Positions 18,658 through 38,877 of a stretch of 64,000 nt of DNA are shown here, in pieces. This DNA is from Neolewinella aurantiaca (GTDB lineage Bacteria > Bacteroidota > Bacteroidia > Chitinophagales > Saprospiraceae), in NCBI RefSeq assembly GCF_008014675.1, contig NZ_VOXD01000007.1:1-64000 (forward strand). The letters are read 5' to 3'. Under the pieces are notes generated by a model. It saw only the letters and a program-made list of their open reading frames with translations, searched no databases and was not told the origin of the DNA. Each line of letters opens with the position of its first letter. The first letter of the stretch is position 1. A program made the translations under genes and the position numbers.

Positions 18658-21600
18658 TTAGCGGATCAAGGTAGTTTCTCCGGAGAGCACTTCTTCGGAA
18701 TCGTCGTCGTAGCGGACTACGATTTTGTACAGGTAAACGCCAGCATTGACCGGTTCCATATTAACCGTTCCGTCCCAGCCCATTGAGGCATCGTTGACGG
18801 CAAAGTCACTCGCTTCGTAGAGGACGTTGGCCCAGCGGTCAAATACGGTGAAACTGACAACCTGGGTGCCCGGACGGCCATGAACGATAAGTACATCGTT
18901 GGATGCATCTCCGTTAGGAGAAAATCCGGTAGGCACGGCTACTTCACGAATCTTTCTTACGCTTACCCGGAAACGATCTTCGGCGGTACAGCCGTTGGCG
19001 TCCGCAACCACGAGGCTGTAATCGATCTCATATTCCGGCATCGCGTTGGGAGTCGGGCAATCCTCGCAGTCCAGGGTTCCTCCGTAGGAGCCCGTCCAGT
19101 TGTAAATCAGAGAGTCGATACCGCCAACGATGGTGGGGATGAGATCAATACTGTCACCGAAGATTATGGTCGTGTCGGCAGGGAGCATCAGGCTGAATTC
19201 AGGCCCGTCACTTACCTGAACCACCGAACTGGTCTGGCAACCTGAACTGTCACGCACGAAAGCGATGTACTCGCCGGCCTGCAGGCCAATGAACATTGAA
19301 TTGCGGGTGAATCCCTGGTTCTCGAGGCCGTAAACGTATGGTTGTCGTCCACCACCACCGGTTATGTTGATGGTGCCCGTAGCTTCACCTTCGCAAATAG
19401 CAGCGGTACTGGTAGCTGAGATAGAAATAGCTGAGGGTTGGACGATCTCGACGGTCGAAATGTCCTCACATTGATTACCATCCGTGACGGTTAGCTCGTA
19501 GCTGCCGGCTGGCAGGCTCACGATTTGGTTCTGGCCGCTGCCGGTGCTCCATTCGTAGATATAGCCACCCGCTCCGCCGTTGCCCAGGGCTGAGATGCGG
19601 CCGTCCGTTTCGCCGAAGCAGCTAACGTCGAATTTGTTGATGCTTGTGGTTAATTCTGTGGGCTCCGTAATCCGGAGGACAGTGTCGATCGTACAGCCAT
19701 CCACATCGGTGATCCGGAGGGTGTAGTTGTCTCCCGCGGGTAAACCGGACACCATTGCTGCGGTGCTGTTGCCAGCTTCAGGTCCCCATTGCAGGTCATA
19801 GTTGCCCGGGTTTGGTCCGGAAATGTTGGCAATGGTAAGCGCTCCGTTGGATTCACCGAAACAGGTTACGGGAGTCTCGTCTGCCGTAAAAGTAATGGGA
19901 GGCGGAGCATTGAGGAAACGCTCACCTTCTCCTGTACAGCCTCTTGGGCCAGTGACGGTAACACGATAAAGCAAATCGCCGGGCAGGTTGGAAATGGCTA
20001 CGCCTGATTGCCCGTTAGACCATTGGTAGGTGTAATCAGACTCTACGGTGCCCGCTCCACCCATTGGTATGGCACCAAGACGGCCATCGGTACGGTCGTT
20101 ACAACTGGGGAGATTCGCAATGATGTTTACGGTGATTTCAGGTAAGTCTTCAAGGGTGACGGAGAAGGTCTCGACACATCCGCCATCGTCGGTTACCATA
20201 ACTGTATTTAATCCCGACGGTAAAGCGAGTGCCGTGGCGGTCGTTTCGCCGTTGCTCCACAAGTAAGAATACCCGGGAGTACCTCCGGATGGGGTAACGG
20301 TAGCCTGGTTTGCAGAAGCTTCGAAACAGCCCTGACGATCCTGTACAACAGTTGCCGTCAGCGGTGTTGCGGGCTGGTCGATGGTCACGGTATTTGATGC
20401 GGTACAGCCGTTTGAATCGGTTACTGTTACCTCATAAGTTCCTGCTGTCAGGTTGAAAACACTGTCTTGGTCGGATCCAGTTTGCCACATATAGGAGTAA
20501 ATCCCATTGCCACCCGTAGGCAGAGCGACGGCGTTGCCATCGTCTCCGTCGCGGCAGGTAACGTCGCTGGAGCGGAAAGTAATGGCGAGCTGATCGGGCT
20601 GATCAACAACGGCCTGCAGGGTCGTGGTACACCCGAGAGCGTCAGTAACCAGCAAGTTGTAGGTTCCCGTTGTCAGTGCGCCGGCATCTTCGTCTACCTG
20701 GGCGTTGGGGTCGTCCCAGGAGAAGGTATAGGGCGGGGTACCTCCGGTGGTTGTTACACGAATTTCACCGTTGGAAGCCCCGAAACAACTGGCATCGATA
20801 ACTTCATCGAGGGTAGCCACCAGCGCCGGACGTTCGGTGAGCATGTATGAAAATGTTTCTTCACAGCCCTGGTCGTTAGAGATCGTAAGCGTGTAAGTAC
20901 CGGCTCCGACGAAAGTACGGTCTTCAGTGATTACGCCATCGTTCCAAATGTAGTTGTAACTCGGGGCACTGCCAGTAACGGTTACGTCTATAGCTCCGGT
21001 CATAGTACCGGGGCATGAGGGATTGGTGAGGACTTCAGTCACGGAAATATCCAGCGTACTGATGCTGACGTTTACTGTTGCCATGTCCGTACAACCTGCT
21101 GCGGTCATCACGTTCAGGGTGTAGGTAGCGGGGCCATCCGGGGTAATGGTAGGATTTGGACAGTCGGTACAGGAGAGGTTGCCATCGTTGGGCAACCATT
21201 CGTAAGTAAAACCACGGTCGTAGTTGAGGGACAGAGACCAGCCTATCAGCTCGCCGAGGTCGTTGCCCTGGCGGTCAAAAGCCAACAGTTGCCAGGTACC
21301 GTTGATGGGGGAGTTGTTGAAGGCTGTCCAGTTGCCGCCAATCGGGGCAAAAGTACCTGTGTACGGAGCCGTGCCACTGCTCAGAGGAGTTGTTGCGGTA
21401 GGACTGAAACAGGTTTGCGTAAGGTCTTCTCCGTTGCCGCCAAAGTTCTCCACCAGCGTCAGCACCCTTCCGTTGGGAGCAATGATCTGAATAGTGACAT
21501 CGTCGAGATCGCCGGTGTTTTCCAGATTGACACAAATTGAGCTCAGGTCGGCGGCTACGTTCGTGATCCGGTCTGGGGTAAAGTCGGTGATTACAATATC

Positions 21601-23406
21601 ATTCAGGAAAGCCGTCATGTCATCCGGATAGAAAGCGTTGCCGAAGGGAGCATTCGCAAAAGATTCGAAAGTGATGAAGGTGTCGGTGGCCATCGCTCCG
21701 ATGACGTCGGGAGTAAAGGATTCTCCGAGGCAGATTGAGGTGTCGAGTACTTCCCGGTCTACCAGCGGGCCACAATTAGCACATGCAGGGTCATACGGAG
21801 GAAGAATGTTGATCGTGACGCTGGTGTCGTACACACAGCCGTAATCATCGGTGGAAACGATCCGGATGGAGTTCGGGCCGGGGTTCTGACCGGCAAAGAT
21901 TACGCTGTCGGTGCCGTAAAAGCTGAAGTTGTCGAAATCCTCAAACCTGAAATCATTGACCGGTACAACGAAGGTCTCCTGATTGGGGTACAGGGAGTTT
22001 ACGAACTCGATGGACCACTCGTAGATGTACCCGTTGTCGTTGGTAAGGTTATCACGGATATTCAGAGCCCATTCTCCGTTCAGCGGACAACCGACAAGGG
22101 TGTTGAAGCTTTCCTCAGCGGCGTAGTCGATTTCCGGCATGGTCTGATCGGATCCGATGTTGAACTGGCTGACGTGCTGGGCCATGGTCCTTGGGGCTGT
22201 GGCGGTCCAGCAGTACCGTCCGGGCGGGTCAGGAGTATTGGTGTCCTGATCACCCTGGCCGAGAAGTTGGCGCTGAACATCATCGGAGGTAGAGTACCGG
22301 TGAAGGTCGAGGATGCTGCCGTCGGGGCAGGTAATCCAGATATCCAGGTCGCCGAGGTAACTGTGCTCCATGGTGGCACAAATACGGACGAGGTCACTGG
22401 CCTGACCCAGGGTCTGGCCCGGGTTGAAGTTGGAGAATACCAGCGGGCTGGAATATTCCGATCCGTTGCCATCAGGCAGGAAGGTAAGTTCGGTGAAGCT
22501 CTGGCTGGTGTTGAACGAGAACTCTACCGGAGTCGGGTTATAATCAATGGAATTAGGGCTGCCATCACGGCCAACGGTTAGGATCACTTCCTCGCCGACG
22601 CAAAGGGAGGAGGGAAGATTATCCGGGGAAGAAAAAACGGGAGGCGGTGCAACCCGCACGCGCTGGCTGATACGGGTGCTGTTTTCGCACCCGTCGGCAT
22701 CCCTGATGGTGAGCTGGGCAAGGTAGCCCCCGGGGTCGTCGTAGATGTGGGATATTGAAGTAAGGCCGAAACCTTCTTCGATGGTGCCATCCTGAAAGTT
22801 CCAGGAAAAGAAAGACGTGGCGTCGCTTTGGGTGTAGCGCAGGTTGTTCTCGGCGTAAACCCCTTCGGCGGTAAAGATGATCTCATCGCCGGGGCAGATG
22901 TCGACATAGCCGTTCGTTGCGGGCATCTGGGCCGGTACCGTTGTGATTATTCCGTCGATGGACTGACAGGACCGGACACAACTGATGGAGGCGGACCAGC
23001 CCGCTCCCGTTCCGGTACTGGTAAATACGAAAGTGAGGCAACCCGTTGGGTTGCTCTGGGTTGCGGTTACGTTGAAACCGGGAGAATCTCCGGAGTTGAT
23101 GGTAGTTTGTACGGGAGCGGAAGTATCGTCTCCGCCGTAGACGGTCAGTTCTCCGTCTATATTCAGTTCTGTGAAGTCTACCCTGATGTGGCTCAGGGCG
23201 CCACCGTCGTCTGAGCAGATCGTGATCTGATGCGTCGTGCCGTTGGCGGCGTGGTCTCCTCCCGCGCCTCCGGAATCGAAAAGTACCCCCGTGCAGGTAT
23301 TAATCCGGCCACCCTGAGATATCCGGATGTTTTGAGCATCCACTGCCGAAGACAGGGTGAAAAGGCCAAGAAAGAAAAAAAGGAGACGAGCGTAGAATTG
23401 GGGCAT
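18658..23406 (-). CDS. Giant SprB-repeat cell-surface adhesin, type IX secreted
   Basis: A 1582-residue protein. Order seen: signal peptide (MPQFYARLLFFFLGLFTLSSAVDAQ), CUB-like domain (about 25-150), PKD-like domain, two proprotein-convertase P-like domains (SFTELTFLPDGNGSEY..LGDLDIWITCPDG and DIVITDFTPDRITNVAADLSSICVNLENTGDLDDVTIQIIAPNG), then eight SprB repeats of roughly 75-80 residues (each opening like SCFGxxxG and ending GTYxLxVTDxxGC). The protein closes with an Ig-like segment and a gliding-motility-associated C-terminal domain (VPTGFSPNGDASNDVLIV..NAGVYLYKIVV..GETTLIR). Such adhesins are exported by the type IX system with PorP/SprF partners. Start ATG 23406 gives a proper signal peptide; 23433 and 23595 would add implausible N termini. 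Confidence 0.9.
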   Translation of the reverse strand: MPQFYARLLFFFLGLFTLSSAVDAQNIRISQGGRINTCTGVLFDSGGAGGDHAANGTTHQITICSDDGGALSHIRVDFTELNIDGELTVYGGDDTSAPVQTTINSGDSPGFNVTATQSNPTGCLTFVFTSTGTGAGWSASISCVRSCQSIDGIITTVPAQMPATNGYVDICPGDEIIFTAEGVYAENNLRYTQSDATSFFSWNFQDGTIEEGFGLTSISHIYDDPGGYLAQLTIRDADGCENSTRISQRVRVAPPPVFSSPDNLPSSLCVGEEVILTVGRDGSPNSIDYNPTPVEFSFNTSQSFTELTFLPDGNGSEYSSPLVFSNFNPGQTLGQASDLVRICATMEHSYLGDLDIWITCPDGSILDLHRYSTSDDVQRQLLGQGDQDTNTPDPPGRYCWTATAPRTMAQHVSQFNIGSDQTMPEIDYAAEESFNTLVGCPLNGEWALNIRDNLTNDNGYIYEWSIEFVNSLYPNQETFVVPVNDFRFEDFDNFSFYGTDSVIFAGQNPGPNSIRIVSTDDYGCVYDTSVTINILPPYDPACANCGPLVDREVLDTSICLGESFTPDVIGAMATDTFITFESFANAPFGNAFYPDDMTAFLNDIVITDFTPDRITNVAADLSSICVNLENTGDLDDVTIQIIAPNGRVLTLVENFGGNGEDLTQTCFSPTATTPLSSGTAPYTGTFAPIGGNWTAFNNSPINGTWQLLAFDRQGNDLGELIGWSLSLNYDRGFTYEWLPNDGNLSCTDCPNPTITPDGPATYTLNVMTAAGCTDMATVNVSISTLDISVTEVLTNPSCPGTMTGAIDVTVTGSAPSYNYIWNDGVITEDRTFVGAGTYTLTISNDQGCEETFSYMLTERPALVATLDEVIDASCFGASNGEIRVTTTGGTPPYTFSWDDPNAQVDEDAGALTTGTYNLLVTDALGCTTTLQAVVDQPDQLAITFRSSDVTCRDGDDGNAVALPTGGNGIYSYMWQTGSDQDSVFNLTAGTYEVTVTDSNGCTASNTVTIDQPATPLTATVVQDRQGCFEASANQATVTPSGGTPGYSYLWSNGETTATALALPSGLNTVMVTDDGGCVETFSVTLEDLPEITVNIIANLPSCNDRTDGRLGAIPMGGAGTVESDYTYQWSNGQSGVAISNLPGDLLYRVTVTGPRGCTGEGERFLNAPPPITFTADETPVTCFGESNGALTIANISGPNPGNYDLQWGPEAGNSTAAMVSGLPAGDNYTLRITDVDGCTIDTVLRITEPTELTTSINKFDVSCFGETDGRISALGNGGAGGYIYEWSTGSGQNQIVSLPAGSYELTVTDGNQCEDISTVEIVQPSAISISATSTAAICEGEATGTINITGGGGRQPYVYGLENQGFTRNSMFIGLQAGEYIAFVRDSSGCQTSSVVQVSDGPEFSLMLPADTTIIFGDSIDLIPTIVGGIDSLIYNWTGSYGGTLDCEDCPTPNAMPEYEIDYSLVVADANGCTAEDRFRVSVRKIREVAVPTGFSPNGDASNDVLIVHGRPGTQVVSFTVFDRWANVLYEASDFAVNDASMGWDGTVNMEPVNAGVYLYKIVVRYDDDSEEVLSGETTLIR

Positions 23407-23433
23407 CGGAGAGATGTTAGATCGGTCATTCAT

Positions 23434-23451
23434 TGCACCTGCGGCCTCGCC
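23434..23451 (-). repeat. Dispersed 18-bp element, copy 7
   Basis: TGCACCTGCGGCCTCGCC, one mismatch, 27 bp upstream of the adhesin start. Confidence 0.8.
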
Positions 23452-23598
23452 TGAAAATGCTCGTATCGTAAAGAGGATCATCAGGGAACAGCAAATAGTG
23501 CCGGGAGACAAAGGTAATTTATGAGAGCTGAAGCCACGGACGCGCTGGCGACAAAACCCAAGGGCTGTTAGGGGAGCTTGCCCGTCATTGAACATCCC

Positions 23599-27161: not shown

Positions 27162-27191
27162 TTGGAATTGTCAGAGTTGGGTGTATATTTG
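27162..27191 (+). promoter_or_regulatory. Promoter of the susC-susD operon
   Basis: TTGG (27162-27165), an 18-bp spacer and TATATTTG (27184-27191) are a very good match to the Bacteroidota consensus TTTG/TTGG - N17-23 - TAnnTTTG. The transcript should start near 27197, just before two TGGTNNACCA palindromes. A second -7-like box, TAGCTTTG, lies at 27312-27319 without a clear -33 partner. Confidence 0.75.
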
Positions 27192-27202
27192 GCGAACCAA
27201 AC

Positions 27203-27225
27203 TGGTGCACCAATTTGGTTTACCA
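27203..27225. promoter_or_regulatory. Tandem TGGTNNACCA operator pair
   Basis: TGGTGCACCA (27203-27212) and TGGTTTACCA (27216-27225) are two perfect palindromes with centres 13 bp apart. They resemble operators of FadR/FCD-type GntR regulators (TGGTnnnACCA family). They lie just downstream of the predicted transcription start. The GntR/FCD gene at 32491 is the obvious candidate binder. Confidence 0.7.
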
Positions 27226-27370
27226 GTTTAATTTTCGATCATAGCTGCCTTAAAGGATAGAACGTAAAAGTTGTAGTGGATTTTCCAGAGAGGGCTCGTT
27301 CCCTTTCCCCATAGCTTTGATCATGCAAAACTTGATTCTTTACTCACTACAAATTCAAAATTCATTACGA

Positions 27371-30300
27371 ATGATTTTAAGGACCAAACTGATGTTGGTT
27401 GGACTGTTGTTCCTCAACATTTCACTATTCGCGCAGGATACACGCGTTTTAACCGGAACGGTTTCGGATGCTGACGATTTTACACTGATCGGCGTCAATA
27501 TTCTCGTTACCGGTACATCCCGGGGTACTTCTACAGACTTTGACGGGAATTACGAATTGGAGGTAAGCACCGGAGACGTGCTTCAGTTCTCCTACACGGG
27601 CTATGTTTCTCAAACGATCACCGTCGGGAACCAGACTGAACTGAACGTGACGTTGGCCGGAGACGCTGCGGTACTTGAAGAAGTTGTAGTTGTTGGTTAC
27701 GGCTCCCGGAAGAAGAGTGATATCACGGGCGCTGTATCCTCGGTCAAGTCCGAAGAACTCAACGCTTTCCCCGTACTGGATGCTGCTCAGGCACTTCAGG
27801 GACGCGCGGCCGGTGTGGTTGTTCAGTCTAACAATGGTGGTGAGCCAGGTGCTCCGATCAACATTAAAATTCGTGGTAACACCTCTATCAGTGCCAACAG
27901 CTCACCGCTGATTGTTGTTGATGGATTTGTTGGTGCTACTATGCCACAGGCGAACGATATCGCTTCCATGGAAGTACTGAAGGATGCATCTGCGACCGCT
28001 ATTTATGGTTCCAGAGGATCGAACGGTGTAATTCTGGTAACGACCAAAAAAGGTAAGAGCGGACGTTTGTCTATTGAGCTTAATTCAACTTATGCAACAC
28101 AGAACACTGCAAACGAGCTTGACCTCCTGAATGCAGACGAATTTGCCGACTACCAGAACCAGATCAGAGCAAACAACGGCATTTCTACGCCTTATCCACA
28201 AGGCCCTGCCGATACAGACTGGCAAGACCTGATCTACCAGTCGGGTAACACCCAGAACCACCAGCTTTCACTCTCCGGTGGATCAGATAAAGTGAACTTC
28301 TACGCCTCCGGTAACTTCTTCGATCAGCAAGGAATTGTGGTGAACTCCGGTTTCGAAAGAGCTACCTTCCTGTCTAACATCGACGCGCAGGTGAATGATA
28401 AATTCAAGCTGGGGCTCAATCTTTTTGGTAGCCGTGGCACCAAGGACGGAGTAACAACTCAGTCTGACGGTTCGGTAACGGTTGGTGGTGATGATGTTAT
28501 CTCACTTGCGATGCGGTTTGCACCGGACAAGCCCGTACAGGACGAAGACGGGAACTTTACTACCAACGACGTAATTGGTGACGAAGTAGACAACCCGTTT
28601 GCTGTTGCCACTCAGCGCGTTGATGAGACCGTTACGGATAACTTCCGGGCTAACGTTTACGCTAACTACGACATCTTAAAGAACCTGTCGTTTAAGACCA
28701 CTTTCGGTCTGAGCAGCGAGAACGTATCCCGCGGAGTTTACCAGCCTTCTTCGCTTCAGATTACTGCCTCGGCAGTAGGCGGAAGAGCCAGCGTGGTTAA
28801 TACTAAAAGAACCAGCGTACTCAGCGAAAACTACCTGACTTACACAAAAGAGATCGGCAAAGGTGCTTTAACATTGTTGGGTGGATACTCTTACCAGAAA
28901 AACAAAAACGAGGCATTCGCTGCTGCCGGTACCGGCTTCCTGTCTGACGCATTCTCTTACTACGCCCTGAGTACTGCTACCGGTCTGCTCCAGCCAGCAT
29001 CTTCTCTTTCCGAAACAGAGATTCAGTCTCAGTTCGGACGACTCAACTACGACTACGACAACCGTTACCTCGTTACCGCTACGGTAAGAAGAGACGGAGC
29101 TTCGAACTTCGCTGCGAACAACAAATACGCTGTTTTCCCATCTGCTGCATTGGGGTGGAAAATCTCTAATGAAGACTTCCTGATCGACAACGAAACCATT
29201 TCCAGCCTCAAACTGAGAGTGAGCTACGGTGTTACGGGTAACCCTTCCATCAGCCCCTACCAGTCACTTGCCCGCTTTGCGAGCCTTTACGCTTCCAGAA
29301 ACGGACAGACTGTATTCGCCATCACACCAGACCAGCCAGCTAACCCTGACCTGAAATGGGAATCTTCTTACCAGACTAACATTGGTGTAGACTTAGGCTT
29401 GATTGACAACCGCGTTAACCTGTCGGTAGACTACTACAACATCGATACCAAAGACCTGATCCTCGGAAACAACGGTATTCCTGAGTACTTCGGCTTCCAG
29501 AACGATGAGATCCTGACCAACCTCGGTGAGATCAACAACAGAGGTTTTGAAATCTCCCTTAACACCAAAAACATCGTGAAAGGTGATTTCCGGTGGAGTA
29601 CCGATTTCAACCTGTCTGCTAACAAGAACGAGGTTGCGGCGTTGATCAACGATGCTGACCTGTTCGGCAACGCAGCACCGAGTTACTTCAGCCATGACCG
29701 TAGCTACGTTCTCCGCGTTGGAGAAGAAGTAGGTCTTTTCTGGGGATACGAGTACAGCGGTGTTTACCAGGGAGGCGACCTGCCTGCCGGAACACAAACA
29801 CTTACCGGCGGTGTAGCCGGCGATCCACTGTTTGTAGATACTGATGGTAACGGTGAGATTACTGAAGCCGATAGAACCATCATTGGTAACCCGAACCCTG
29901 ATTTCACTTTCGGTTTCACGAACAACTTCACGTACAAAAACTTCGACCTCAATATCTTCTTCCAGGGGGCTCAGGGAGGTGATATTTTTAACATGACCAA
30001 CGTTCAGCTGAACAACGGTGATGCAAATACCACCCGTGACTACTTCAACAACGCATGGACTCCAACCAACACCGACACCGACCAGCCTCGCGTTGGTAAC
30101 AACAGCAACCGGGAGATCTCTTCCCGTTTCGTTGAGGACGGTAGCTACATCCGCCTGAAGAACATCGCTCTTGGTTACAACCTGCCTACAGCAACTGTAG
30201 AGAAACTGGGTATTGGTGGCATCCGCCTGTCGGTAAGCGCTCAGAACCTGCTGACTATTACAGACTACTCCGGCCTTGATCCTGAGGTAAACTACTTCGG

Positions 30301-30406
30301 TGCCAGTGGCGACAACAACACTTCCAGTAACACGGTACAAGGTTTTGACTTTGGTAACTACCCAACGGTAAAATCATTCAATTTCAGCCTCAACGTTCAG
30401 TTTTAA
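27371..30406 (+). CDS. SusC/RagA-family TonB-dependent outer membrane transporter
   Basis: A 1011-residue SusC-like protein. Signal peptide (MILRTKLMLVGLLFLNISLFAQ), then a CarboxypepD_reg-like domain (about 25-105: TGTVSDADDFTLIGVNILVTGTSRGTSTDFDGNYELEV), a TonB-box region (EEVVVVGYGSRKKSDITGAVSSV), plug domain (about 115-230, with NIKIRGNTSISANSSPLIVVDG and ATAIYGSRGSNGVILVTTKKG) and a large barrel to the end. SusC proteins import glycans or other nutrients with a SusD lipoprotein lid, encoded 200 bp downstream. The frame is open from 27317, but the ATG at 27371 gives the correct signal peptide. Confidence 0.95.
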   Translation: MILRTKLMLVGLLFLNISLFAQDTRVLTGTVSDADDFTLIGVNILVTGTSRGTSTDFDGNYELEVSTGDVLQFSYTGYVSQTITVGNQTELNVTLAGDAAVLEEVVVVGYGSRKKSDITGAVSSVKSEELNAFPVLDAAQALQGRAAGVVVQSNNGGEPGAPINIKIRGNTSISANSSPLIVVDGFVGATMPQANDIASMEVLKDASATAIYGSRGSNGVILVTTKKGKSGRLSIELNSTYATQNTANELDLLNADEFADYQNQIRANNGISTPYPQGPADTDWQDLIYQSGNTQNHQLSLSGGSDKVNFYASGNFFDQQGIVVNSGFERATFLSNIDAQVNDKFKLGLNLFGSRGTKDGVTTQSDGSVTVGGDDVISLAMRFAPDKPVQDEDGNFTTNDVIGDEVDNPFAVATQRVDETVTDNFRANVYANYDILKNLSFKTTFGLSSENVSRGVYQPSSLQITASAVGGRASVVNTKRTSVLSENYLTYTKEIGKGALTLLGGYSYQKNKNEAFAAAGTGFLSDAFSYYALSTATGLLQPASSLSETEIQSQFGRLNYDYDNRYLVTATVRRDGASNFAANNKYAVFPSAALGWKISNEDFLIDNETISSLKLRVSYGVTGNPSISPYQSLARFASLYASRNGQTVFAITPDQPANPDLKWESSYQTNIGVDLGLIDNRVNLSVDYYNIDTKDLILGNNGIPEYFGFQNDEILTNLGEINNRGFEISLNTKNIVKGDFRWSTDFNLSANKNEVAALINDADLFGNAAPSYFSHDRSYVLRVGEEVGLFWGYEYSGVYQGGDLPAGTQTLTGGVAGDPLFVDTDGNGEITEADRTIIGNPNPDFTFGFTNNFTYKNFDLNIFFQGAQGGDIFNMTNVQLNNGDANTTRDYFNNAWTPTNTDTDQPRVGNNSNREISSRFVEDGSYIRLKNIALGYNLPTATVEKLGIGGIRLSVSAQNLLTITDYSGLDPEVNYFGASGDNNTSSNTVQGFDFGNYPTVKSFNFSLNVQF

Positions 30407-30605: not shown

Positions 30606-32114
30606 ATGCAAAACTTGAAATATTTAATCCTGTTGGTGGGATTTGCAATGGTCGGGTGTTCCGACCTGGTTGAAGAGCCGGTGGGCCTGTTAGCTCCGGA
30701 TGGTTTCTTCAAATCTACAGACGATATTCAGACAGCCGTTGATGGCTCTTTTACCCACGCTATCAATGAGAAGTTTTGGGGACGGAAGTTGTCCATCGCA
30801 CTCATGTTACGTTCTGACATGGTAGACCTTGCTTCAAACGAAACAAGAAGAGTGGAGAATAACGAATTCACCACACTTGCCAGCAACGGAATGATCAGCG
30901 AGTTTTGGCCTAAAACATACCAGGGCATCGCTGCCGCCAATCAGGCAATCGCGGGTGCTGAAAATGTTGATGTAGCGGAAGAACTCAAAAACCCGGTAAC
31001 AGCTCAGGCTTACTTTATCCGTGCATTTTACTACTTCCATTTGGTACGTCTTTTCGGAGATGTTCCTTACATCGATGCACCCATCGCTGATGCCGCTGCG
31101 GCAGCATCGATCAGCAAAACTCCTGCTGCTGAAGTTTACCAGAACATCATTTCCGACCTGGAGTACGCAAAGACCTGGTTGCCTAACACCCAGTCTTCAC
31201 GTGCTATTCCTGCCAAGTCAGCAGCGAGTTCTTACCTGGCTTTAGTTCATCTGACAATGGGGAACTACGATCAGGCATTCGCTGAAGCCAAAGAGGTTAT
31301 CGACAATGCGGCAACGTATGACCTGGCCCTTGAACCAGATTTTCAGGTTCTGTTCGACGCTAATCAGATTGATGGTTCTAAAGAGCCGATTTTTGCACTG
31401 GACTACAACAACGTTGAAGCTCCTAACAATGCTTACGATCAGATTGCTCCCATGACCGGTATCCGGGGTGATGACAGAAATTCAGGTGGCGGATGGTCCG
31501 TTGCTGTTCCTACCCTCGAAGTTTACACGACCTGGCCCGCAGGTGACTACCGCAGAGCCGTTAGTCTGGACGAAGAGGTTTCAATTGGTGGTACTCAGGT
31601 TAGCTTCACTAACTTCGACATCAGCGGTCACCAGTTCGCTAAGAACAATCCGTACATCGCTAAGTACACTCGCTTCCCCGGCCCTTTCGCCCGCGGAAAC
31701 GCACGGGCAACGAGCCATAACTACTCAATGATTCGCTACGCAGAGGTACTCCTGATTGCTGCCGAGGCCGCAGTTGAACTCAACGATAATGCATCTGCAA
31801 CCAACTACATCAACCAGGTCCGGGCTCGTGCACGCTCTGGTGGCTCGTGGAATGATACTGAACCAAGTGCTGTTCCTGCAGACATTACCGGAACCGTTAC
31901 CGTAGATGACGTCCTGGAAGAACGTCGTTACGAACTCGCTTTTGAGTGTAAGAGATGGTACGATATTGTACGTCGCCGCATCGGGGACGAAGTTTTCAGC
32001 GCATCAGGTCTTGAAGGTGAAAAAGAGTTCTTTACTGCCGATGATTACCTGCTGCCACTTCCTGCTGATGAGCTGGAGCGTAACCCTAATCTGACCCAGA
32101 ACCCAGGGTACTAG
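30606..32114 (+). CDS. SusD/RagB-family outer membrane lipoprotein
   Basis: A 502-residue SusD-like protein. The lipobox ends at Cys18 (FAMVGCSD), giving a lipid anchor. The TPR-rich N-terminal half (YQGIAAANQAIAGAENVD; AQAYFIRAFYYFHLVRLFGDVPYID; SYLALVHLTMGNYDQAFAEAKEVIDNAATYDL) and the C-terminal segment MIRYAEVLLIAAEAAVELNDNASATNYINQVRARAR and VLEERRYELAFECKRWYDIVRR are signature SusD features. It forms the substrate-binding lid on SusC. No polysaccharide lyase or glycoside hydrolase gene is nearby, so the substrate is unclear. Confidence 0.95.
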   Translation: MQNLKYLILLVGFAMVGCSDLVEEPVGLLAPDGFFKSTDDIQTAVDGSFTHAINEKFWGRKLSIALMLRSDMVDLASNETRRVENNEFTTLASNGMISEFWPKTYQGIAAANQAIAGAENVDVAEELKNPVTAQAYFIRAFYYFHLVRLFGDVPYIDAPIADAAAAASISKTPAAEVYQNIISDLEYAKTWLPNTQSSRAIPAKSAASSYLALVHLTMGNYDQAFAEAKEVIDNAATYDLALEPDFQVLFDANQIDGSKEPIFALDYNNVEAPNNAYDQIAPMTGIRGDDRNSGGGWSVAVPTLEVYTTWPAGDYRRAVSLDEEVSIGGTQVSFTNFDISGHQFAKNNPYIAKYTRFPGPFARGNARATSHNYSMIRYAEVLLIAAEAAVELNDNASATNYINQVRARARSGGSWNDTEPSAVPADITGTVTVDDVLEERRYELAFECKRWYDIVRRRIGDEVFSASGLEGEKEFFTADDYLLPLPADELERNPNLTQNPGY

Positions 32115-32250: not shown

Positions 32251-32490
32251 TTAGAGATCGATTGATCTGAGTCTTGTATCTTGCGCGATATTTGCAGGTT
32301 GAAAAGTAAGTCTGAAGGGTTGTTTGCTCTTATTGCTTCTTCAACCTCAGAGTTGAGCAAACTGCAGTTGTCCCAGGAAGCAATTGTCTCTGCTATAAGT
32401 AAAACGGATCATCCGGTTATGTGAAATATGAGCAGATAATCGCTTTCGGGTATATGAGCTAATTATTTAAAATTGAATAGATTGCCTTCA
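32251..32490. other. Intergenic region upstream of the GntR gene
   Basis: A/T-rich. A TTG-initiated frame at 32299-32424 encodes 41 residues beginning KSKSEGLFALIASS, which faintly resembles the start of a group of Bacteroidota proteins (SEALFELIxSL). It may be a remnant or chance. A TTGCTC/GAGCAA inverted repeat lies within it. Confidence 0.35.
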
Positions 32491-33216
32491 ATGATGAAAC
32501 TGGACTTAAATACAAAAAATGATAACCACGATATCCAAAACCTTATTATATCGAAAATAAGGAATTTAATTAATCACAAAAATCTGGAGCCAGGAGACAA
32601 GCTTCCATCGGAACGGGTATTATCGGAAAAATTTGGTGTCAGCAGAAGACACGTCAGAGAAGCGATACAAAAGCTTGAGCTTTATGAATTGGTAGAATCA
32701 ATTCCTCAGTCCGGTACATTTGTCGCAAATATTGGCCAAACAGCATTGAATGGAATAATTAACGATATTCTACGATTAAGAAGACATGATTTCAAATCAT
32801 TGGTGGAAACCAGGATTTTGTTAGAGCTGAGAATGGTCGAATTAGCAGCTAAAAGAAGAACGGAAGAAGATTTGAAGGCAATTGAAACAACATTTGACGC
32901 ATATAAAGCAAAAGTGGTAAATCGGGAGGATGCATTACAGGAAGATTTGTTGTTTCACCTGGCCATCGCAAGGGCTAGCGGGAACACAACAATGAATGCA
33001 TTGCTACTACAGATTACACCTAATATTATTAATGTTTTTGAAACGAACCGAGTATGTAAATTCGATGATAATATTTTGGAGCTTCAGAAGCACCAAGCTA
33101 TCTTTGAGGCTATTGCAAAAAGAGATTCAGCCATGGCAATCGAAAGTATGGAAACTCATTTTGACCGTTTAATGGAGTTTTGCAATAGATTTGAAAATCA
33201 AGTAATAAACGATTAA
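32491..33216 (+). CDS. GntR-family (FadR/FCD) transcriptional regulator
   Basis: A 241-residue regulator. The winged helix (about 15-80) has the GntR signature EPGDKLPSERVLSEKFGVSRRHVREAIQKLELYELVE. The FCD ligand domain (about 105-230) carries the usual metal-binding set, Asp152/His156 (EDLLFHLAIARASGN), His201 and His223. FCD regulators respond to sugar acids and other organic acids. It sits between susCD and the SDR gene. Two TGGTNNACCA palindromes in the susC promoter are plausible targets. The gene is visibly A/T-richer than its neighbours, which suggests different origin or codon use. The start was taken at the first ATG (32491) over a TTG at 32473. Confidence 0.93.
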   Translation: MMKLDLNTKNDNHDIQNLIISKIRNLINHKNLEPGDKLPSERVLSEKFGVSRRHVREAIQKLELYELVESIPQSGTFVANIGQTALNGIINDILRLRRHDFKSLVETRILLELRMVELAAKRRTEEDLKAIETTFDAYKAKVVNREDALQEDLLFHLAIARASGNTTMNALLLQITPNIINVFETNRVCKFDDNILELQKHQAIFEAIAKRDSAMAIESMETHFDRLMEFCNRFENQVIND

Positions 33217-33328: not shown

Positions 33329-34093
33329 ATGATTAATTTAAATGGAAAAGTGGCCATCGTAACTGGTGCCACCGGAGGAATCGGTTTTGCAGTAGCTAAA
33401 AGATTAGGCCAGGACGGATACACCGTTATTTTGAACGGCATTCGGGATGAGGTTGGAGCTGAAAGAGTTCAGGAACTGGTAGCAGAAGGCATCAAAGCCG
33501 AGTACTACGGTTTCGACGTTACGAATGAAGAAGCAGTAACCGAAAACATCACCAAAATCGGCGAGAAGTACGGCCGTATCGACGTGCTGGTGAACAACGC
33601 CGGTGGACTGGGAGGACGGTCCCGTTTCGAAGACATGACCACTGAGTTCTACCGGTTTGTTATGGCCCTGAACCTGGATTCCGTTTTCTTCGCATCACGT
33701 GCAGCCATTCCTTTCCTCAAGAAAGGAGAGAACCCGACCATCATCAACTACACCTCTAACGCTGCATGGAATGCAGGAGGTCCGGGAGCTGGTATCTACG
33801 GTACTTCTAAAGCTGGCGTTCAGACCATCACACGCGCCCTGGCCAAAGACCTGGCCGAGTACGGTATTCGGGTGAACGCAGTATCTCCGGGTACTATCGA
33901 CACTCCTTTCCACCAGCAGATCAAATCCACCAAGCCTGAAGTATTTGCTTCGTGGGCAAACAACATCATGTTGGGCCGACTCGGTCAGCCAGATGACGTT
34001 GCCGGAGTTGTGGCTTTCCTGGCAAGCAAAGATGCTGCCTTCCTCACCGCCGAAACCGTACAGGTCGGAGGTGGCCAGGCACTGGGAATCTAA
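33329..34093 (+). CDS. Short-chain dehydrogenase/reductase (SDR)
   Basis: A 254-residue classical SDR. The cofactor motif TGATGGIG (residues 12-19) is followed by NNAGG (89-93). The catalytic triad is Ser143, Tyr157 and Lys161 (NYTS..YGTSK), and the PGTI segment comes after. SDRs of this shape reduce or oxidise sugar acids or 3-oxoacyl compounds. Being next to a SusCD pair and FCD regulator, it may be a uronate-type reductase, but there is no adjacent kinase or aldolase to show this. Confidence 0.9.
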   Translation: MINLNGKVAIVTGATGGIGFAVAKRLGQDGYTVILNGIRDEVGAERVQELVAEGIKAEYYGFDVTNEEAVTENITKIGEKYGRIDVLVNNAGGLGGRSRFEDMTTEFYRFVMALNLDSVFFASRAAIPFLKKGENPTIINYTSNAAWNAGGPGAGIYGTSKAGVQTITRALAKDLAEYGIRVNAVSPGTIDTPFHQQIKSTKPEVFASWANNIMLGRLGQPDDVAGVVAFLASKDAAFLTAETVQVGGGQALGI

Positions 34094-34165: not shown

Positions 34166-34214
34166 CAAGTGGACCATACCAGGGATTTCTTCCAGGTTGG
34201 TCCACTTGTGTTTT
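34166..34214 (+). terminator. Strong hairpin/terminator between SDR and Nramp-like genes
   Basis: Perfect 11-bp arms CAAGTGGACCA (34166-34176) and TGGTCCACTTG (34198-34208) are followed by TGTTTT. It ends 13 bp before the start of the transporter gene and may act as an attenuator between the two genes. Confidence 0.7.
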
Positions 34215-34226
34215 AATAAGAGTCGA

Positions 34227-35483
34227 ATGGCAACTACAAAAGACAAAATTTTATCGGGCCTGGCAGCTTTTCTCCCCGGTATTTTCCTCTTAGGATTCAA
34301 CATCGGTACCGGCAGCGTTACCGCAATGGCAAAAGCAGGGGCAACCTACGGTATGTCTCTCCTCTGGACGATTGTTGCTTCCTGTCTGACGACTTACTTC
34401 ATGATCAATCTTTACAGTCGCTATACTCTGGTGACGGGGGAGACTGCTCTTCATGCCTTCCGAAAACACATCCATCCGGCGGTTGGTATTTTCTTTATCG
34501 TTGCCCTTACCGCCGGTGTGATGGGAAGCGTAATGGGGGTAATGGGGATTGTGGCAGACATCAGTTTTGAATGGTCCAAGAGTTTCGTGGAGGGAGGAAT
34601 CGCTCCGGTTTACTTCGCGCTTGCTTTCATTTCTTTGGTGATTGTCATTTTCTGGAATGGTAAAACGCAGTTCTTTGAACGAGCCTTAGCGGTGATTGTC
34701 GCTATCATGTCCGCCTGCTTTGTCGCTAACTTCTTCATTCTGATGCCTCCGCCGCTGGAAATTGTCAAAGGTTTGATTCCTAACATCCCTGAAGTACCGG
34801 CGGATCAGGGGAAAGGACCGTTTCTGGTCATCGCTTCCCTGGTGGGAACTACCGTTTTTTCAGGCCTGTTTATCATTCGGACCACTTTGGTTAAGGAAGC
34901 TGGCTGGACGCTGAAAGACATGAAAGTGCAGCGTAAAGACGCAATCGTGTCGGTAACCTTGATGTTTCTGATCAGCATGTCGATCATGGCTGCTGCTGCC
35001 GGAACACTTTACGTAGCCGATATCGGTCTTACCAAAGCATCACAAATGATTGGTTTGCTGGAGCCTCTGGCCGGCCCGCTGGCCACCGCAATATTCGCCT
35101 TCGGAATTATTGCTGCCGGCGTCTCCTCCCAGATCCCCAATGTACTCATGCTGCCATGGTTGCTCTGCGACTACAATCAGTCGGAGCGCGAAATGACCCG
35201 TCCTAAATACCGGATAATGGTGGTTCTGATTTCTCTGTTGGGCCTGGTGGTCCCAATCTTTAATGCTCCTCCTGTATTCGTGATGATTGCTTCTCAGGCG
35301 TTTAACGCTGTGATTCTTCCAGCCACGGTGGCTGGGATTTTCTACCTGGGCAACAGGAAAGACCTCATGGGGGTACACAAAAACAGTACAGCTACAAATG
35401 TAATCCTGTTTCTGATTCTTCTGTTCTCCATTTTTACCTCAGCGGTAGGAATCAGGGGAGTATGGCAGCTGGTAGCGGGCTAA
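34227..35483 (+). CDS. Nramp-like transporter without the canonical metal-site motifs
   Basis: A 418-residue polytopic protein with about eleven membrane helices. The first block is FLPGIFLLGFNIGTGSVTAMAKAGATYGMSLLW, equivalent to the Nramp helix-1 region. In true Nramp transporters this helix contains the metal-binding DPGN motif; here the segment is NIGTGSV. The equivalent of the helix-6 MPH motif also reads differently (IASLVGTTVFSGLFIIRTTL). The LeuT-like fold is thus likely but divalent metal binding is not supported. Located in a catabolic cluster, it could carry an organic acid. A gene encoding a bicupin lies convergently 31 bp away. Confidence 0.72.
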   Translation: MATTKDKILSGLAAFLPGIFLLGFNIGTGSVTAMAKAGATYGMSLLWTIVASCLTTYFMINLYSRYTLVTGETALHAFRKHIHPAVGIFFIVALTAGVMGSVMGVMGIVADISFEWSKSFVEGGIAPVYFALAFISLVIVIFWNGKTQFFERALAVIVAIMSACFVANFFILMPPPLEIVKGLIPNIPEVPADQGKGPFLVIASLVGTTVFSGLFIIRTTLVKEAGWTLKDMKVQRKDAIVSVTLMFLISMSIMAAAAGTLYVADIGLTKASQMIGLLEPLAGPLATAIFAFGIIAAGVSSQIPNVLMLPWLLCDYNQSEREMTRPKYRIMVVLISLLGLVVPIFNAPPVFVMIASQAFNAVILPATVAGIFYLGNRKDLMGVHKNSTATNVILFLILLFSIFTSAVGIRGVWQLVAG

Positions 35484-35514: not shown

Positions 35515-36285
35515 TTAACTCTCTTCGTCAACGATGTGGGTCTTCAGCCATTCTTCCCCTTTGCTGTCCATGAAGAAGTCCATCCATACGTAGTGGAGGG
35601 TTTCTCCTTCGTCTACGGTGACGGAGTGTCGGGAGCCAAGCGGGATGTGGAGCAAGCTGTGTTCCGGGAATTCAACCTGAGCATCGTCGGCGTAAACGGT
35701 ACATTTATTGCCCGCGAGGCCTAAGAACAATTGCTCCAGCATGGGGTGCTCGTGCGCCCCAACTTCATCAGGTCCTTTCGTTTGTACAGTACCCATTGCT
35801 ACCCGGGGAATAATTTTATTGGGAAGAATGGTCCTGCTGATCGTGCCCGGACTTTTGATGGGTTCGGTGTACGATTGACAGTCGCTGAACTTGGCGTAAT
35901 AGACGTTCTGCGTGTCTTCCGCGGGGAAATCCTCCAGTTCTTTCTGGTCCTGTTCCGATAGCTTACTTGTGATTTTCAGGTAATGAAGGGGAGCGGCTTC
36001 ATCTGCTTTGATTTCAATGCTCTGAATAATATTAGGGAGGAAAATCGTTTCCGGAACAATCTCATAATTTTTGTCCTCCGCAATAATGCTTCCCGTGCCT
36101 TTTGTGAATATGTAAATTGATTTGTAACCTTCTTTGGTTGAGTCGGTTATGGTTAATCCTGCTGTATTCGAAATGTGTTCGATTTCAATGTCCTTAATTT
36201 CATTTTCCATAATTAATATGGAAGATGAAAGATCATTTTTAGCGTTTAAATTGACAATTGGAATTTCCTGCTTAGACATATTCAA
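35515..36285 (-). CDS. Bicupin protein of unknown function
   Basis: A 256-residue protein with two cupin-like halves. The C-terminal half carries GAHEHPMLEQLFLGLAGNKCTVYADDAQVEFPEHSLLHIPLGSRHSV, with a cupin metal site of the HxH..E..H type (His in HEHP, Glu in EQLF, His in SRHSV). The N-terminal half shows only the fold pattern (KGTGSIIAEDKNYEIVPETIFLPNIIQSI). It is not similar enough to KduI or KdgF to name. It probably works with the neighbouring genes on the substrate imported by SusCD. Confidence 0.7.
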   Translation of the reverse strand: MNMSKQEIPIVNLNAKNDLSSSILIMENEIKDIEIEHISNTAGLTITDSTKEGYKSIYIFTKGTGSIIAEDKNYEIVPETIFLPNIIQSIEIKADEAAPLHYLKITSKLSEQDQKELEDFPAEDTQNVYYAKFSDCQSYTEPIKSPGTISRTILPNKIIPRVAMGTVQTKGPDEVGAHEHPMLEQLFLGLAGNKCTVYADDAQVEFPEHSLLHIPLGSRHSVTVDEGETLHYVWMDFFMDSKGEEWLKTHIVDEES

Positions 36286-36554: not shown

Positions 36555-37064
36555 TTAGTCCTGGTAAGCTCCTGAAGAGTAAGTCAGTTCGTAGCTATGG
36601 GTATAGATTTCGAATACGATACCGAAGGGGTCCTGAACGTAGACCATTTTGTAGGGCTTGTCGTTCGGGTAATACTCCCGGATGGGCATCCTTTGCTTGC
36701 CTCCGTGATCCACAATTTTCTGGGTGAGCCCCTCGATGTCCGGATCCTGAACACAGAAGTGAAAAAGGCCGGTGTTGAAGGGATTGAACTCTGGTGCTTC
36801 CTTTACGCCGTGAGGGAAGGAAAAAAGTTCGATGCCAATTCCATCGGAAGTTGACATATGAGCGATTTCGAATTCTTCCCAGTCGTCTCCGAAGACATCG
36901 ATACACATCTGACCGATGGCCGTGTCTTTCTCCTTTTTGATTTTGGAAGGCTTCATGATGACGTACCAGCCCATCACATTTTCGTAGAAATCCACGGCTT
37001 TTTCCAAGTCAGGAACGGTTATGCCGATGTGTGAGAAGGATCTGGGGTATTTTACTTTTTCCAT
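36555..37064 (-). CDS. VOC-fold protein (glyoxalase/dioxygenase superfamily)
   Basis: A 169-residue protein with two beta-alpha-beta-beta-beta modules of the vicinal oxygen chelate fold. Likely metal ligands are His in SHIGITVPDLEKAVDFYENVMGW, Glu in GIGIELFSFPHGVKEAP, His in TGLFHFCVQDPDIEGL and Glu in GIVFEIYTHSYE. This set is typical of glyoxalase I and extradiol dioxygenases. Given its position 270 bp upstream of the cupin gene and on the same strand, it may act in the same pathway. Start ATG 37064 is preferred to 37076. The substrate is unknown. Confidence 0.83.
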   Translation of the reverse strand: MEKVKYPRSFSHIGITVPDLEKAVDFYENVMGWYVIMKPSKIKKEKDTAIGQMCIDVFGDDWEEFEIAHMSTSDGIGIELFSFPHGVKEAPEFNPFNTGLFHFCVQDPDIEGLTQKIVDHGGKQRMPIREYYPNDKPYKMVYVQDPFGIVFEIYTHSYELTYSSGAYQD

Positions 37065-37188
37065 TTCGAGTCGCAATTATTGTTTGATTGAATAGAATGT
37101 CGACGGGAACAATATTAGATGGGGAATAGATGCACCGTCGATCTATTCCCCGTGTTAAATATTGATCCGTCTTGTTTCAAACGGACTC

Positions 37189-37245: not shown

Positions 37246-38877
37246 TTAGGTTTGCAGAACCCCCATTTTCCACTCTTCGAGCGGAGCAAACTGGGCGGCT
37301 TCTACTCCGGTCGAGATCCAGTCTCGGGTTGTCCGGGGATCAATGATCTCGTCTATCCACAGTCGGGCAGCGGCGTAGTACGGGCTCGTTTGAGCATCGT
37401 AGCGGTCGGTGATTTTCTTAAGCAGGGCTTCTTCTTCGGCGGCGGAAACCACTTCTCCTTTAGCCTTGCGGCTACCCACCTGAATCTGCAGGAGTACTTT
37501 TGCTGCCTGGGCTCCGCCCATTACGGCGAGGCGGGCGCTGGGCCAGCTGAGCATCAGGCGTGGATCGTAGGCACGGCCACACATGGCGTAGTTGCCGGCA
37601 CCGTAGCTGTTGCCGACTACAATGCTGAACTTAGGCACCACGCTGTTGGCCATTGCGTTTACCATTTTTGCTCCGTCTTTAATGATTCCGCCCTGTTCGG
37701 AGCGGCTGCCCACCATGAAACCCGATACGTCGTGCAGGAACACGAGAGGGATTTTCTTCTGGTTGCAGATCATGATGAAGCGCGCGGCTTTGTCGGCAGA
37801 ATCCGAGTAGATCACTCCGCCGAATTGCATTTCTCCTTTGCCGGACTTTACGACCAGGCGGTTATTGGCCACGATGCCGACGCTCCAGCCATCGATGCGA
37901 GCATAGCCGCAGAGCAGGGTCTGGCCGTATTCTTCTTTGAATTCGGTAAACTCTCCGTTATCTACCATTGCCTTGATGAGGTCGATGCCTGCGTAAGGTT
38001 TTGCCCGGTCTTCGGGGAGCACCTTCATGATGGCGTCGGAGGTTTCCGGCAATGCGGGTTCGGCACGGTTGAAGTTGGTGAGTATGGTTTCCGGCATCCG
38101 GCCCACCAGGTCGCGGATGGTGGAAAGGCATTCGTGGTCGTCTTTGCATTTGTAGTCGATCACCCCGGAAACGGAAGCGTGCATTTCGGCTCCGCCGAGG
38201 TCTTCGGCGTCTACTTTTTCGCCGATGGCTGCGCGGACGAGGTAAGGCCCGGCCAGGAAAATACTTCCGGTGCCTTCAACGATCAACGACTCATCAGACA
38301 TGATCGGGAGGTACGCGCCTCCGGCTACACATGAGCCCATCACGGCCGCAATCTGCGGCACCCCCATTGCGCTCATTTTTGCGTTGTTACGGAAGATGCG
38401 TCCGAAGTGCTCCTTGTCGGGGAAAATCTCGTCCTGCAACGGAAGGAAAACGCCTGCGGAGTCAACGAGGTAGATGATCGGCACCCGGTTTTCCATGGCG
38501 ATTTCCTGAGCGCGGAGGTTCTTTTTGCCCGTGATCGGAAACCAGGCTCCGGCCTTCACGGTGGCATCGTTGGCAACGATGACGCACAGTCGGCCCTGAA
38601 CACGGCCGTATCCGGTTACGACACCGGCTGCCGGGCAGCCGCCGTACTCCTTGTACATTTCGTAGCCGGCAAAGGCCCCGAATTCCATAAACGTGGTGTC
38701 GGGGTCGATGAGTTGAGCAACACGTTCTCTGGCGGTCAGTTTGCCTTTGTCGTGCTGTTTCATGATGCGTTTCTTACCGCCTCCTTCTTTTATTTTCTCC
38801 AGCCGGTGATTGAGGCGGGAAAGAGAGAGTTGCATGGCGTCTTCGTGCTCCAGGGCAGCTTGTTCTTGTTTAGTCAT
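37246..38877 (-). CDS. Acyl-CoA carboxylase carboxyltransferase subunit (MCC-beta/PCC-beta type)
   Basis: A 543-residue carboxyltransferase. Blocks that match 3-methylcrotonyl-CoA carboxylase beta are LPLQDEIFPDKEHFGRIFRNNAKMSAMGVPQIAAVMGSCVAGGAYLPIMSDES, GTGSIFLAGPYLVRAAIGEKVDAEDLGGAEMHASVSGV, RSEQGGIIKDGAKMVNAMANSVVPKFSIVVGNSYGAGNYAMCGRAYDPR and YYAAARLWIDEIIDPRTTR. It transfers carboxyl from biotin to an acyl-CoA. The biotin carboxylase (alpha) subunit is not encoded in this window, so the acyl-CoA cannot be named with confidence; leucine degradation or propionate metabolism are the usual roles. Confidence 0.9.
   Translation of the reverse strand: MTKQEQAALEHEDAMQLSLSRLNHRLEKIKEGGGKKRIMKQHDKGKLTARERVAQLIDPDTTFMEFGAFAGYEMYKEYGGCPAAGVVTGYGRVQGRLCVIVANDATVKAGAWFPITGKKNLRAQEIAMENRVPIIYLVDSAGVFLPLQDEIFPDKEHFGRIFRNNAKMSAMGVPQIAAVMGSCVAGGAYLPIMSDESLIVEGTGSIFLAGPYLVRAAIGEKVDAEDLGGAEMHASVSGVIDYKCKDDHECLSTIRDLVGRMPETILTNFNRAEPALPETSDAIMKVLPEDRAKPYAGIDLIKAMVDNGEFTEFKEEYGQTLLCGYARIDGWSVGIVANNRLVVKSGKGEMQFGGVIYSDSADKAARFIMICNQKKIPLVFLHDVSGFMVGSRSEQGGIIKDGAKMVNAMANSVVPKFSIVVGNSYGAGNYAMCGRAYDPRLMLSWPSARLAVMGGAQAAKVLLQIQVGSRKAKGEVVSAAEEEALLKKITDRYDAQTSPYYAAARLWIDEIIDPRTTRDWISTGVEAAQFAPLEEWKMGVLQT

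Follow-up and report, generated by a model that had tools for sequence, protein, structure and literature searches.

An Nramp-related protein with a replaced metal site is a candidate importer of alginate-released uronate in Neolewinella aurantiaca

Introduction

Proteins of the family PF01566 are usually annotated as metal transporters. The family also includes the Nramp-related proteins, which a 2026 preprint describes as a paraphyletic group without DPGN, MPH and the proton-pathway residues (PMC12873925). In the passages of that preprint considered here, a substrate is known or hypothesised for EleNRMT and B. subtilis MntG/YcsG, and the other groups are called entirely uncharacterised. EleNRMT transports Mg2+ (PMC12873925). 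YcsG, placed among the Nramp-related proteins (PMC12873925), has been reported as a Mn2+ importer (PMC10448178). Its relative PxpT is needed for growth of C. glutamicum on 5-oxoproline, so a non-metal substrate has precedent in the NRAMP family; the authors do not exclude metal transport (PMC13274462). The substrate of PxpT/YcsG is thus disputed between 5-oxoproline and Mn2+.

The inner-membrane systems named in passages of PMC13390454 are MFS, SSS, TTT and ABC, and a term search of that paper found no Nramp. A 2019 figure legend on Alteromonas alginate systems labels one gene ‘Nramp, metal-ion transporter’ (PMC6431674). UxuA, UxuB and UxaC are listed among the alginate-utilisation genes of a verrucomicrobium (PMC13274419), so UxuA in an alginate setting is not new. 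A PL17 lyase is described as yielding equimolar unsaturated and saturated monomer (PMC12336832), and the UxuB and UxuA steps to KDG are given in PMC6353982.

Here we describe P0001, an Nramp-related protein encoded within a 64,000-nucleotide stretch of the Neolewinella aurantiaca genome (the window). P0001 is like other Nramp-related proteins in its LeuT-type Nramp fold and in having neither DPGN nor MPH. This lack is already known for the group; the alginate context is new. What sets P0001 apart is that its clade, with the GTGS motif and R218, is tied to alginate catabolism. We propose that P0001 is a LeuT-fold inner-membrane importer that takes up a uronate derived from alginate, with saturated D-mannuronate the most likely one, and give this reading a probability of about 0.6.

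The transporter and its predicted fold

The P0001 gene (Table 1) has a translation free of internal stops, with TTG 34197 as a possible alternative start. The protein matches PF01566 over its full length (356 of 357 profile positions, E = 4.9e-56), and its 190.8 bits against a curated cut-off of 29.8 make it a member of the family. It scores 82.9 bits with the NCBIfam MntH model, far under the cut-off of 430. The NCBIfam equivalog Nramp_1, ‘divalent metal transporter’, gives 78.6 bits, above its cut-off of 50, so automatic annotation would call P0001 a metal transporter.

The closest PDB sequence in a phmmer search is the Mg2+ transporter EleNRMT (E = 2e-14). An AlphaFold2 model (pLDDT 87.7, pTM 0.86) predicts a LeuT fold of the Nramp kind in which TM1 and TM6 are broken; the helix breaks at 26-27 and 210-211 coincide with the substituted motifs. 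In a structure comparison of the model, Nramp-family structures fill the first 26 of 50 listed rows, with 6d91 (Nramp, Z = 44.0, RMSD = 2.6 over 389) at the top; EleNRMT (7qji) follows with Z = 41.8 (RMSD = 3.0 over 385) and a YcsG model (9a52) with Z = 40.0 (RMSD = 3.6 over 394). Non-Nramp folds trail at a distance, including the auxin carrier LAX3 (Z = 28.9), AdiC (27.0) and ApcT (26.9). These APC-superfamily carriers (AdiC, ApcT, LAX3/AUX1) are the next best folds and form families separate from that of P0001, and the shared fold shows no function. We conclude from the family match, the predicted fold and the absence of DPGN and MPH that P0001 belongs to the Nramp-related group of PF01566.

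Table 1. Positions in the window of the P0001 gene, its substituted motifs and the surrounding cluster.
Feature	Positions	Strand	Basis or remark
Three overlapping palindromes, 13-bp spacing, TGGT-N2-ACCA type; candidate GntR operator upstream of susC	27186..27229	.	pattern match
SusC/RagA TonB-linked outer membrane transporter	27317..30406	+	TIGR04056, E 1.5e-273
SusD/RagB lipoprotein	30606..32114	+	PF07980, E 2.3e-34
GntR/FCD transcriptional regulator, presumed cluster regulator	32473..33216	+	PF00392 + PF07729
SDR oxidoreductase, probably DEH reductase (DehR)	33329..34093	+	PF13561; orthologues in alginate operons
Perfect inverted repeat, 11-nt arms, 21 nt apart, upstream of transporter gene	34166..34208	.	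sequence
Nramp-related transporter P0001, candidate alginate-uronate importer	34227..35483	+	418 aa, PF01566
GTGS in place of DPGN (TM1 break), codons 27-30	34305..34316	+	alignments; model helix break 26-27
TTVFSGLFIIR for TM6 A..MPH....H, codons 208-218, R218 invariant	34848..34880	+	alignments; model break 210-211
Cupin protein beside some clade members	35515..36285	-	PF02311, weak

Replacement of the metal site

Motif positions were counted by hand from phmmer and HMM alignments of P0001 to solved Nramps. Conservation was read from an alignment of P0001 and 57 relatives (A2, 58 rows), whose profile was aligned to the solved Nramps. A sequence-only reading of this gene had reported NIGTGSV where helix 1 should carry DPGN, and no MPH in helix 6. 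The alignments agree on both points. NIGTGSV corresponds to residues 25-31, and D-P-G-N of the solved Nramps falls on G27-T28-G29-S30, a GTGS kept in 58/58 rows. The TM6 motif A..M-P-H....H falls on T208..F211-S212-G213....R218, which puts F211-S212-G213 at the place of MPH (kept in 53, 56 and 53 of the 58 rows, respectively) and R218 at the place of the second TM6 histidine. BfraNramp has a TM3 glutamate in contact with metal; HMM alignments to this protein and to DraNramp, read by hand, place G104 at its position. Like G27, T28, G29 and S30, the residues G104, T208 and R218 are invariant (58/58). D or E at position 111 is kept in 55/58 rows and is counted against the uronate reading.

The predicted fold of P0001 is that of canonical MntH/Nramp proteins (DraNramp, BfraNramp), with every ligand position checked replaced; of the canonical SLC11/MntH features, the protein has neither the DPGN of TM1, the MPH of TM6 nor the TM3 glutamate. 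EleNRMT shares the fold and is the best PDB match, but it has an Asp in the DAGG segment of TM1 where P0001 has G27. The sequence-only reading had named an alignment placing conserved metal ligands at the equivalent positions as the result that would speak against it, and the alignments found none. Because the substituted residues are invariant in all 58 rows, the site is a conserved replacement rather than an error; chance or a frameshift as the source of the altered motifs is excluded on the same grounds.

In APC carriers, a small GSG/GTG-type motif in TM1 binds the carboxylate of the substrate. The GTGS of P0001 appears to resemble this small-residue motif. It is plausible that GTGS and R218 would together bind a uronate carboxylate, with R218 as its partner.

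Gene neighbourhood in the window

The sequence-only reading had placed the protein in a catabolic cluster, and the neighbours bear this out. SusC, SusD, a GntR/FCD regulator, an SDR and the Nramp gene follow one another, with a cupin gene next on the opposite strand; the link to alginate is added here. SusC is 69-73 % identical to the SusC proteins of three loci of P0001 relatives (L078, L082, L085; L numbers denote such loci), and alginate lyases are present in L078 and L082. SDRs beside KdgF, MFS, PL6 and PL17 in L071 and L131 share 78 and 86 % identity with that of the window, and an SDR between MFS and PfkB in L077 shares 84 %. Given these orthologues within alginate operons, the window SDR probably is a DEH reductase (DehR). 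The same cluster recurs in Neolewinella persica (L053, 87 %), where MFS, KdgF and PL17 come after it on the other strand. Cupin homologues occur in 3 of the 80 loci described below (L053, L127, L131), and further ones in L034 and L047.

The window cluster has no UxuA or ManA-like gene and, among the genes scanned, no MFS gene. Like P0001, PxpT and YcsG are NRAMP members encoded in an operon for organic-acid catabolism, together with a regulator of the GntR type, PxpR (PMC13274462, PMC10448178). The P0001 cluster differs in that the 7 other proteins scanned around the gene gave no Pfam or NCBIfam match to PxpA, PxpB or PxpC.

Elsewhere in the window, a marine glyoxalase-like protein (36555-37076, minus strand) scores above the cut-off of TIGR03645, a hypothetical equivalog, and its gene adjoins one for a carboxyltransferase-domain protein (37246-38877, minus strand). 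A 1645-aa SprB-repeat protein with a CHU_C type IX secretion signal (18658-23595, minus strand) adjoins PorP/SprF.

Relatives of P0001

In 60 related genomes, the long matches to P0001 are orthologues at 77-87 % identity, a second group at 36-41 % and other Nramps at about 22-32 %, with a few fragments besides. We refer to the orthologue group as type I and to the second group, about 37 % identical, as type II. In a tree of 48 proteins, type I groups as a clade (100/99), and a larger clade (100/98) unites types I and II, separate from 20 rows of other Nramps of the related genomes; the tree carries a warning of long branches meeting, and one gene appears twice among the 20 other rows. Type II as labelled here is not a strict clade, as L038 lies beside type I on a long branch (91/80). 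Both types share GTGS and the TM6 arginine in the rows displayed, in which the L131 type II row is cut before TM1. The other Nramps show DPGN/MPH, IGPGT/VVPYN and further motifs; the one further PF01566 match in the N. aurantiaca genome has IGPGT. Hosts of the clade among the matches listed are Bacteroidetes, Gammaproteobacteria, Planctomycetes, Lentisphaerales, Neomarinimicrobiota and an Erythrobacter, many of them MAGs.

Types I and II occur together in one alginate locus in L112, L113, L115 and L131. The type II gene of L112 (L112:13778-16898 region) adjoins a GntK/IdnK-type gluconokinase (NCBIfam 152.1 against a cut-off of 113.75), and BLAST finds gluconokinase homologues next to type II in L113 and L115 as well. 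In these three loci, type II is accompanied by an SDR, a short unnamed protein and the GntK-type gluconokinase, a possible L-guluronate route.

A scan of GTDB genomes gave at least 573 confirmed relatives. The best 80 (57-88 % identity) were used as loci that extend up to 10 kb on each side of the Nramp gene, less at contig ends. Their ORFs, called simply as the longest ones, were compared by BLAST with anchor proteins, most of which were identified by Pfam or NCBIfam. Among these best 80 of at least 573 relatives, UxuA (mannonate dehydratase) occurs in 40 loci at 54-100 % identity to an anchor. A ManA-like isomerase also occurs in 40 (31-100 %), 14 of them at 69 % or more and 26 at 31-36 %. 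Alginate lyases are represented by PL17 (26 loci), PL6 (20) and PL7 (12). An SDR related to that of the window is found in 23 loci (5 at 78-95 %, 18 at 31-42 %), an MFS homologue in 15 (14 at 44 % or more, one at 26 %) and UxuB, a fructuronate reductase-like protein of the mannitol-dehydrogenase family, in 14. GntR (18), PfkB (16), KdgF (12) and KDPG aldolase (9) are further anchors.

Any alginate lyase is present in 33 of the 80 loci, UxuA, ManA-like or UxuB in 58 and both sets in 29. Neither is present in 18, some of them on short contigs; by identity to P0001, these are 9 of the 54 loci with at least 70 %, 2 of the 6 with 65-70 % and 7 of the 20 with less than 65 %. The gene immediately next to Nramp is ManA-like in 29 loci, UxuA in 26 (19 on the same strand, 7 on the opposite one) and UxuB in 6, and the same-strand run of the Nramp gene includes UxuA, ManA-like, UxuB or a fructuronate-reductase-like SDR in 51/80. 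In 16 control loci of 20 kb, each holding another Nramp of a related genome, no anchor besides Nramp was present (0/16). Fisher tests that treat related loci as independent and use this control from other genomes give P = 5.5e-4 for lyases (33/80 vs 0/16) and P = 3.4e-8 for UxuA/ManA/UxuB (58/80 vs 0/16).

The ManA-like proteins (L058:6674-7771 and 39 other loci) are a mannose-6-phosphate isomerase-like family that scores under the TIGR00218 cut-off and in many loci adjoins the genes for UxuA, fructuronate reductase and Nramp. The family is a candidate D-mannuronate isomerase; a search of the open-access literature for the name ‘mannuronate isomerase’ found no paper.

Other neighbours are mannosidase-like. 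GH38 genes lie in the Nramp loci L072, L074 and L093 (Pfam) and in L086, L098 and L120 (BLAST only), and a GH2 gene with a Mannosidase_ig domain lies in L080 (Pfam), with a BLAST homologue in L083. These proteins might be mannuronidases, or they might point to mannose. Type I relatives at about 57-62 % in L118, L122, L123, L125, L127, L129, L130 and L165-L167 have no lyase, UxuA or ManA-like neighbours. L118 has an esterase next to the transporter and L123 a 2-hydroxyacid dehydrogenase, and the substrate of these relatives may differ.

A shared operator-like palindrome

Of the three palindromes upstream of susC, copies 2 and 3 are exact and copy 1 has 3 mismatches. The window contains 6 matches at up to 3 mismatches against 2.63 expected, a count reached by 6 of 100 shuffles, and its only two exact matches are both in this group. 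The pattern WYTGGTNNACCARW was picked after viewing the window palindromes, one C28 site and the shared 8-mers of L033 and L035, and was then counted. Chosen thus after some of the counted loci had been looked at, it gives 60 sites in 1.776 Mb (18 further clade loci, the 80 loci and the organism's own C28 alginate PUL), of which 51 lie outside called ORFs, 4 are duplicates and 3 are from C28. In 0.379 Mb of control loci there are 0 sites. Intergenic sites precede genes for GntR, SusC, PL6, PL7, PL17, UxuA, UxuB and ManA-like proteins, and the site precedes the Nramp gene itself in L076, L079, L096 (27 bp before the ORF) and L097.

The N. aurantiaca genome (6.0 Mb) has 7 exact sites of this shorter pattern. 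Two are those before susC in the window, three belong to the GntR of the C28 alginate PUL, one on C8 is directly upstream of a PL6-like ORF, and one on C61 is without evident link. A reversed control pattern occurs 8 times in the same genome against 7, so the places of the sites carry the weight, not their number. The 134 bp before the Nramp gene of the window contain no exact operator, only the inverted repeat (Table 1). An operator-like site is therefore common to the window cluster and the alginate genes of this genome, with the window sites preceding susC and not the transporter gene. The GntR/FCD regulator presumably acts at these palindromes, and the window cluster would be part of an alginate regulon.

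Alginate genes elsewhere in the genome and in the class

The organism's own alginate lyases lie outside the window. The C28 locus encodes GntR, SusC, SusD, PL7, PL6, PL17, KdgF and MFS; C30 carries another PL7, and C8 a distant member of the PL6 family. The only UxuA match is on C83, away from the window cluster. One query, used without a positive control genome, found no ManA-like protein, and a member of the distant 31-36 % subgroup could escape it; the isomerase step thus cannot be claimed for N. aurantiaca. A UxuA gene elsewhere and no ManA-like match are a real gap in the mannuronate version of the proposal for this organism.

In 149 genomes of the class (own genome included), types I/II at E up to 1e-40 occur in 6, PF14592 (PL6) at E up to 1e-20 in 6 and both in 4. 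Leaving out the own genome, PF14592 is found in 3 of 5 genomes with types I/II against 5 of 148 overall (hypergeometric P = 1.8e-4), a thin statistic with types I/II in 6/149 genomes only. Two of the three co-occurring genomes, G060 and G143, carry type II, and in G060 a PL6 lies within the same 20 kb. Both type II loci of the class sample (2/2) hold anchors besides Nramp. Within 20 kb, none of the three type I loci of the sample (G068, G112, G104; 58-61 %) shows an anchor other than Nramp. The type I protein of G104 is at 58 % and the PF14592 match of this genome lies on another contig, and G068 and G112 have type I at 60-61 % and no PL6. Below about 62 % identity, these three loci argue against tying type I to alginate in general. 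The nearer relatives, together with the gammaproteobacterial loci at 60-63 % and with type II, carry the link; the 57-65 % range as a whole does not.

Discussion

In the proposed route, alginate oligomers would enter through SusC/SusD. Exolytic lyases would release DEH from every residue but the last, so that each chain end would leave one saturated monomer (M or G). P0001, its Nramp metal site replaced by a small-residue, arginine-containing pocket, would take up saturated M. D-mannuronate can reach KDG by way of fructuronate and mannonate. In many related loci, a ManA-like enzyme of presumed activity would convert D-mannuronate to D-fructuronate, UxuB or an SDR would reduce this to D-mannonate, and dehydration by UxuA would yield KDG, which would join the KDG kinase/aldolase route.

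The sequence itself provides the loss of the metal ligands, the predicted fold, the clustering and the shared operator-like sites; uronate transport by P0001, its substrate and any coupling ion are inferred. Import of an alginate uronate of some kind appears likely; D-mannuronate in particular is a tentative choice, at somewhat less than even odds. The three type I loci of the class sample that lack anchors led us to lower both estimates a little. The organic-anion substrate suggested by the sequence-only reading gains support from the neighbourhoods and the shared operator and is narrowed to an alginate uronate; the class-wide co-occurrence, thin as it is, agrees. The same reading had warned that annotation as a manganese transporter would mislead. 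With the ligands replaced and the neighbourhoods and operator pointing to alginate, it likely would; a figure legend in PMC6431674 already reads ‘metal-ion transporter’.

ManA-like, UxuB or SDR and UxuA genes, the set that this route would require, recur beside the Nramp gene and 15/80 loci also encode an MFS homologue, which favours D-mannuronate and puts DEH second. Import of DEH, with P0001 as a second carrier beside or instead of the MFS protein, would fit the SDR next to P0001, which is 78-86 % identical to the probable DEH reductases of L071, L077 and L131, and the window cluster with no MFS gene among the genes scanned. We consider it unlikely because those MFS homologues accompany the clade, the alginate PUL of the same genome has its own MFS and the commonest neighbours, UxuA and ManA-like, are not required for DEH as its pathway is outlined in PMC6353982.

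It is also unlikely that the P0001 clade instead transports mannose, a neutral sugar of manno configuration, or various sugar acids, with mannuronate as only one case and members that differ. The GH38 and GH2 genes, the 18/80 loci and the 3/3 class-sample type I loci without lyase, UxuA or ManA anchors all lean that way, but mannonate dehydratase is encoded in 40/80 loci, including L080 beside its GH2 gene, and R218 is invariant.

UxuA-type enzymes require a divalent metal, which gives some reason to think of P0001 as an importer of Mn2+, Mg2+ or Ca2+ for the metalloenzymes of the cluster or from Ca-alginate. The PF01566 membership, the Nramp_1 score, the Mg2+ transport by EleNRMT (PMC12873925) and the reported Mn2+ import by YcsG (PMC10448178) also lean that way. 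Such a substrate is nonetheless unlikely, since the ligand positions of P0001 hold no carboxylate, Asn, Met or His, TM6 has an invariant Arg, the clade is associated with alginate genes and EleNRMT retains the TM1 Asp that aligns with G27.

Returning to uronate import, the two types could divide the work. L-guluronate reduced at C1 is D-gluconate. With a gluconokinase adjoining type II, this leads to the hypothesis, drawn from three loci of similar make-up, that type II may import L-guluronate, which would be reduced at C1 to D-gluconate and phosphorylated by the adjoining gluconokinase-type enzyme. D-mannuronate imported by type I would pass through the ManA-like isomerase, UxuB or an SDR, and UxuA. 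That types I and II are sister clades and the missing importers of the saturated alginate monomers, D-mannuronate and L-guluronate, is a rather speculative idea that we would not yet bet on. If it is true, some members of the family would hold a carboxylate-sugar site where a metal-transporter fold has its metal site.

If the clade imports alginate uronates, metal-transporter annotations across its hosts would be corrected. A substrate would be at hand for an Nramp-related group of the kind described as uncharacterised in the passages considered of PMC12873925, and the finding would bear on the question whether metals or organic acids were the first cargo of the Nramp fold. A gap in alginate metabolism would be closed as well: the published pathway passages considered here follow DEH and not the saturated end residue.
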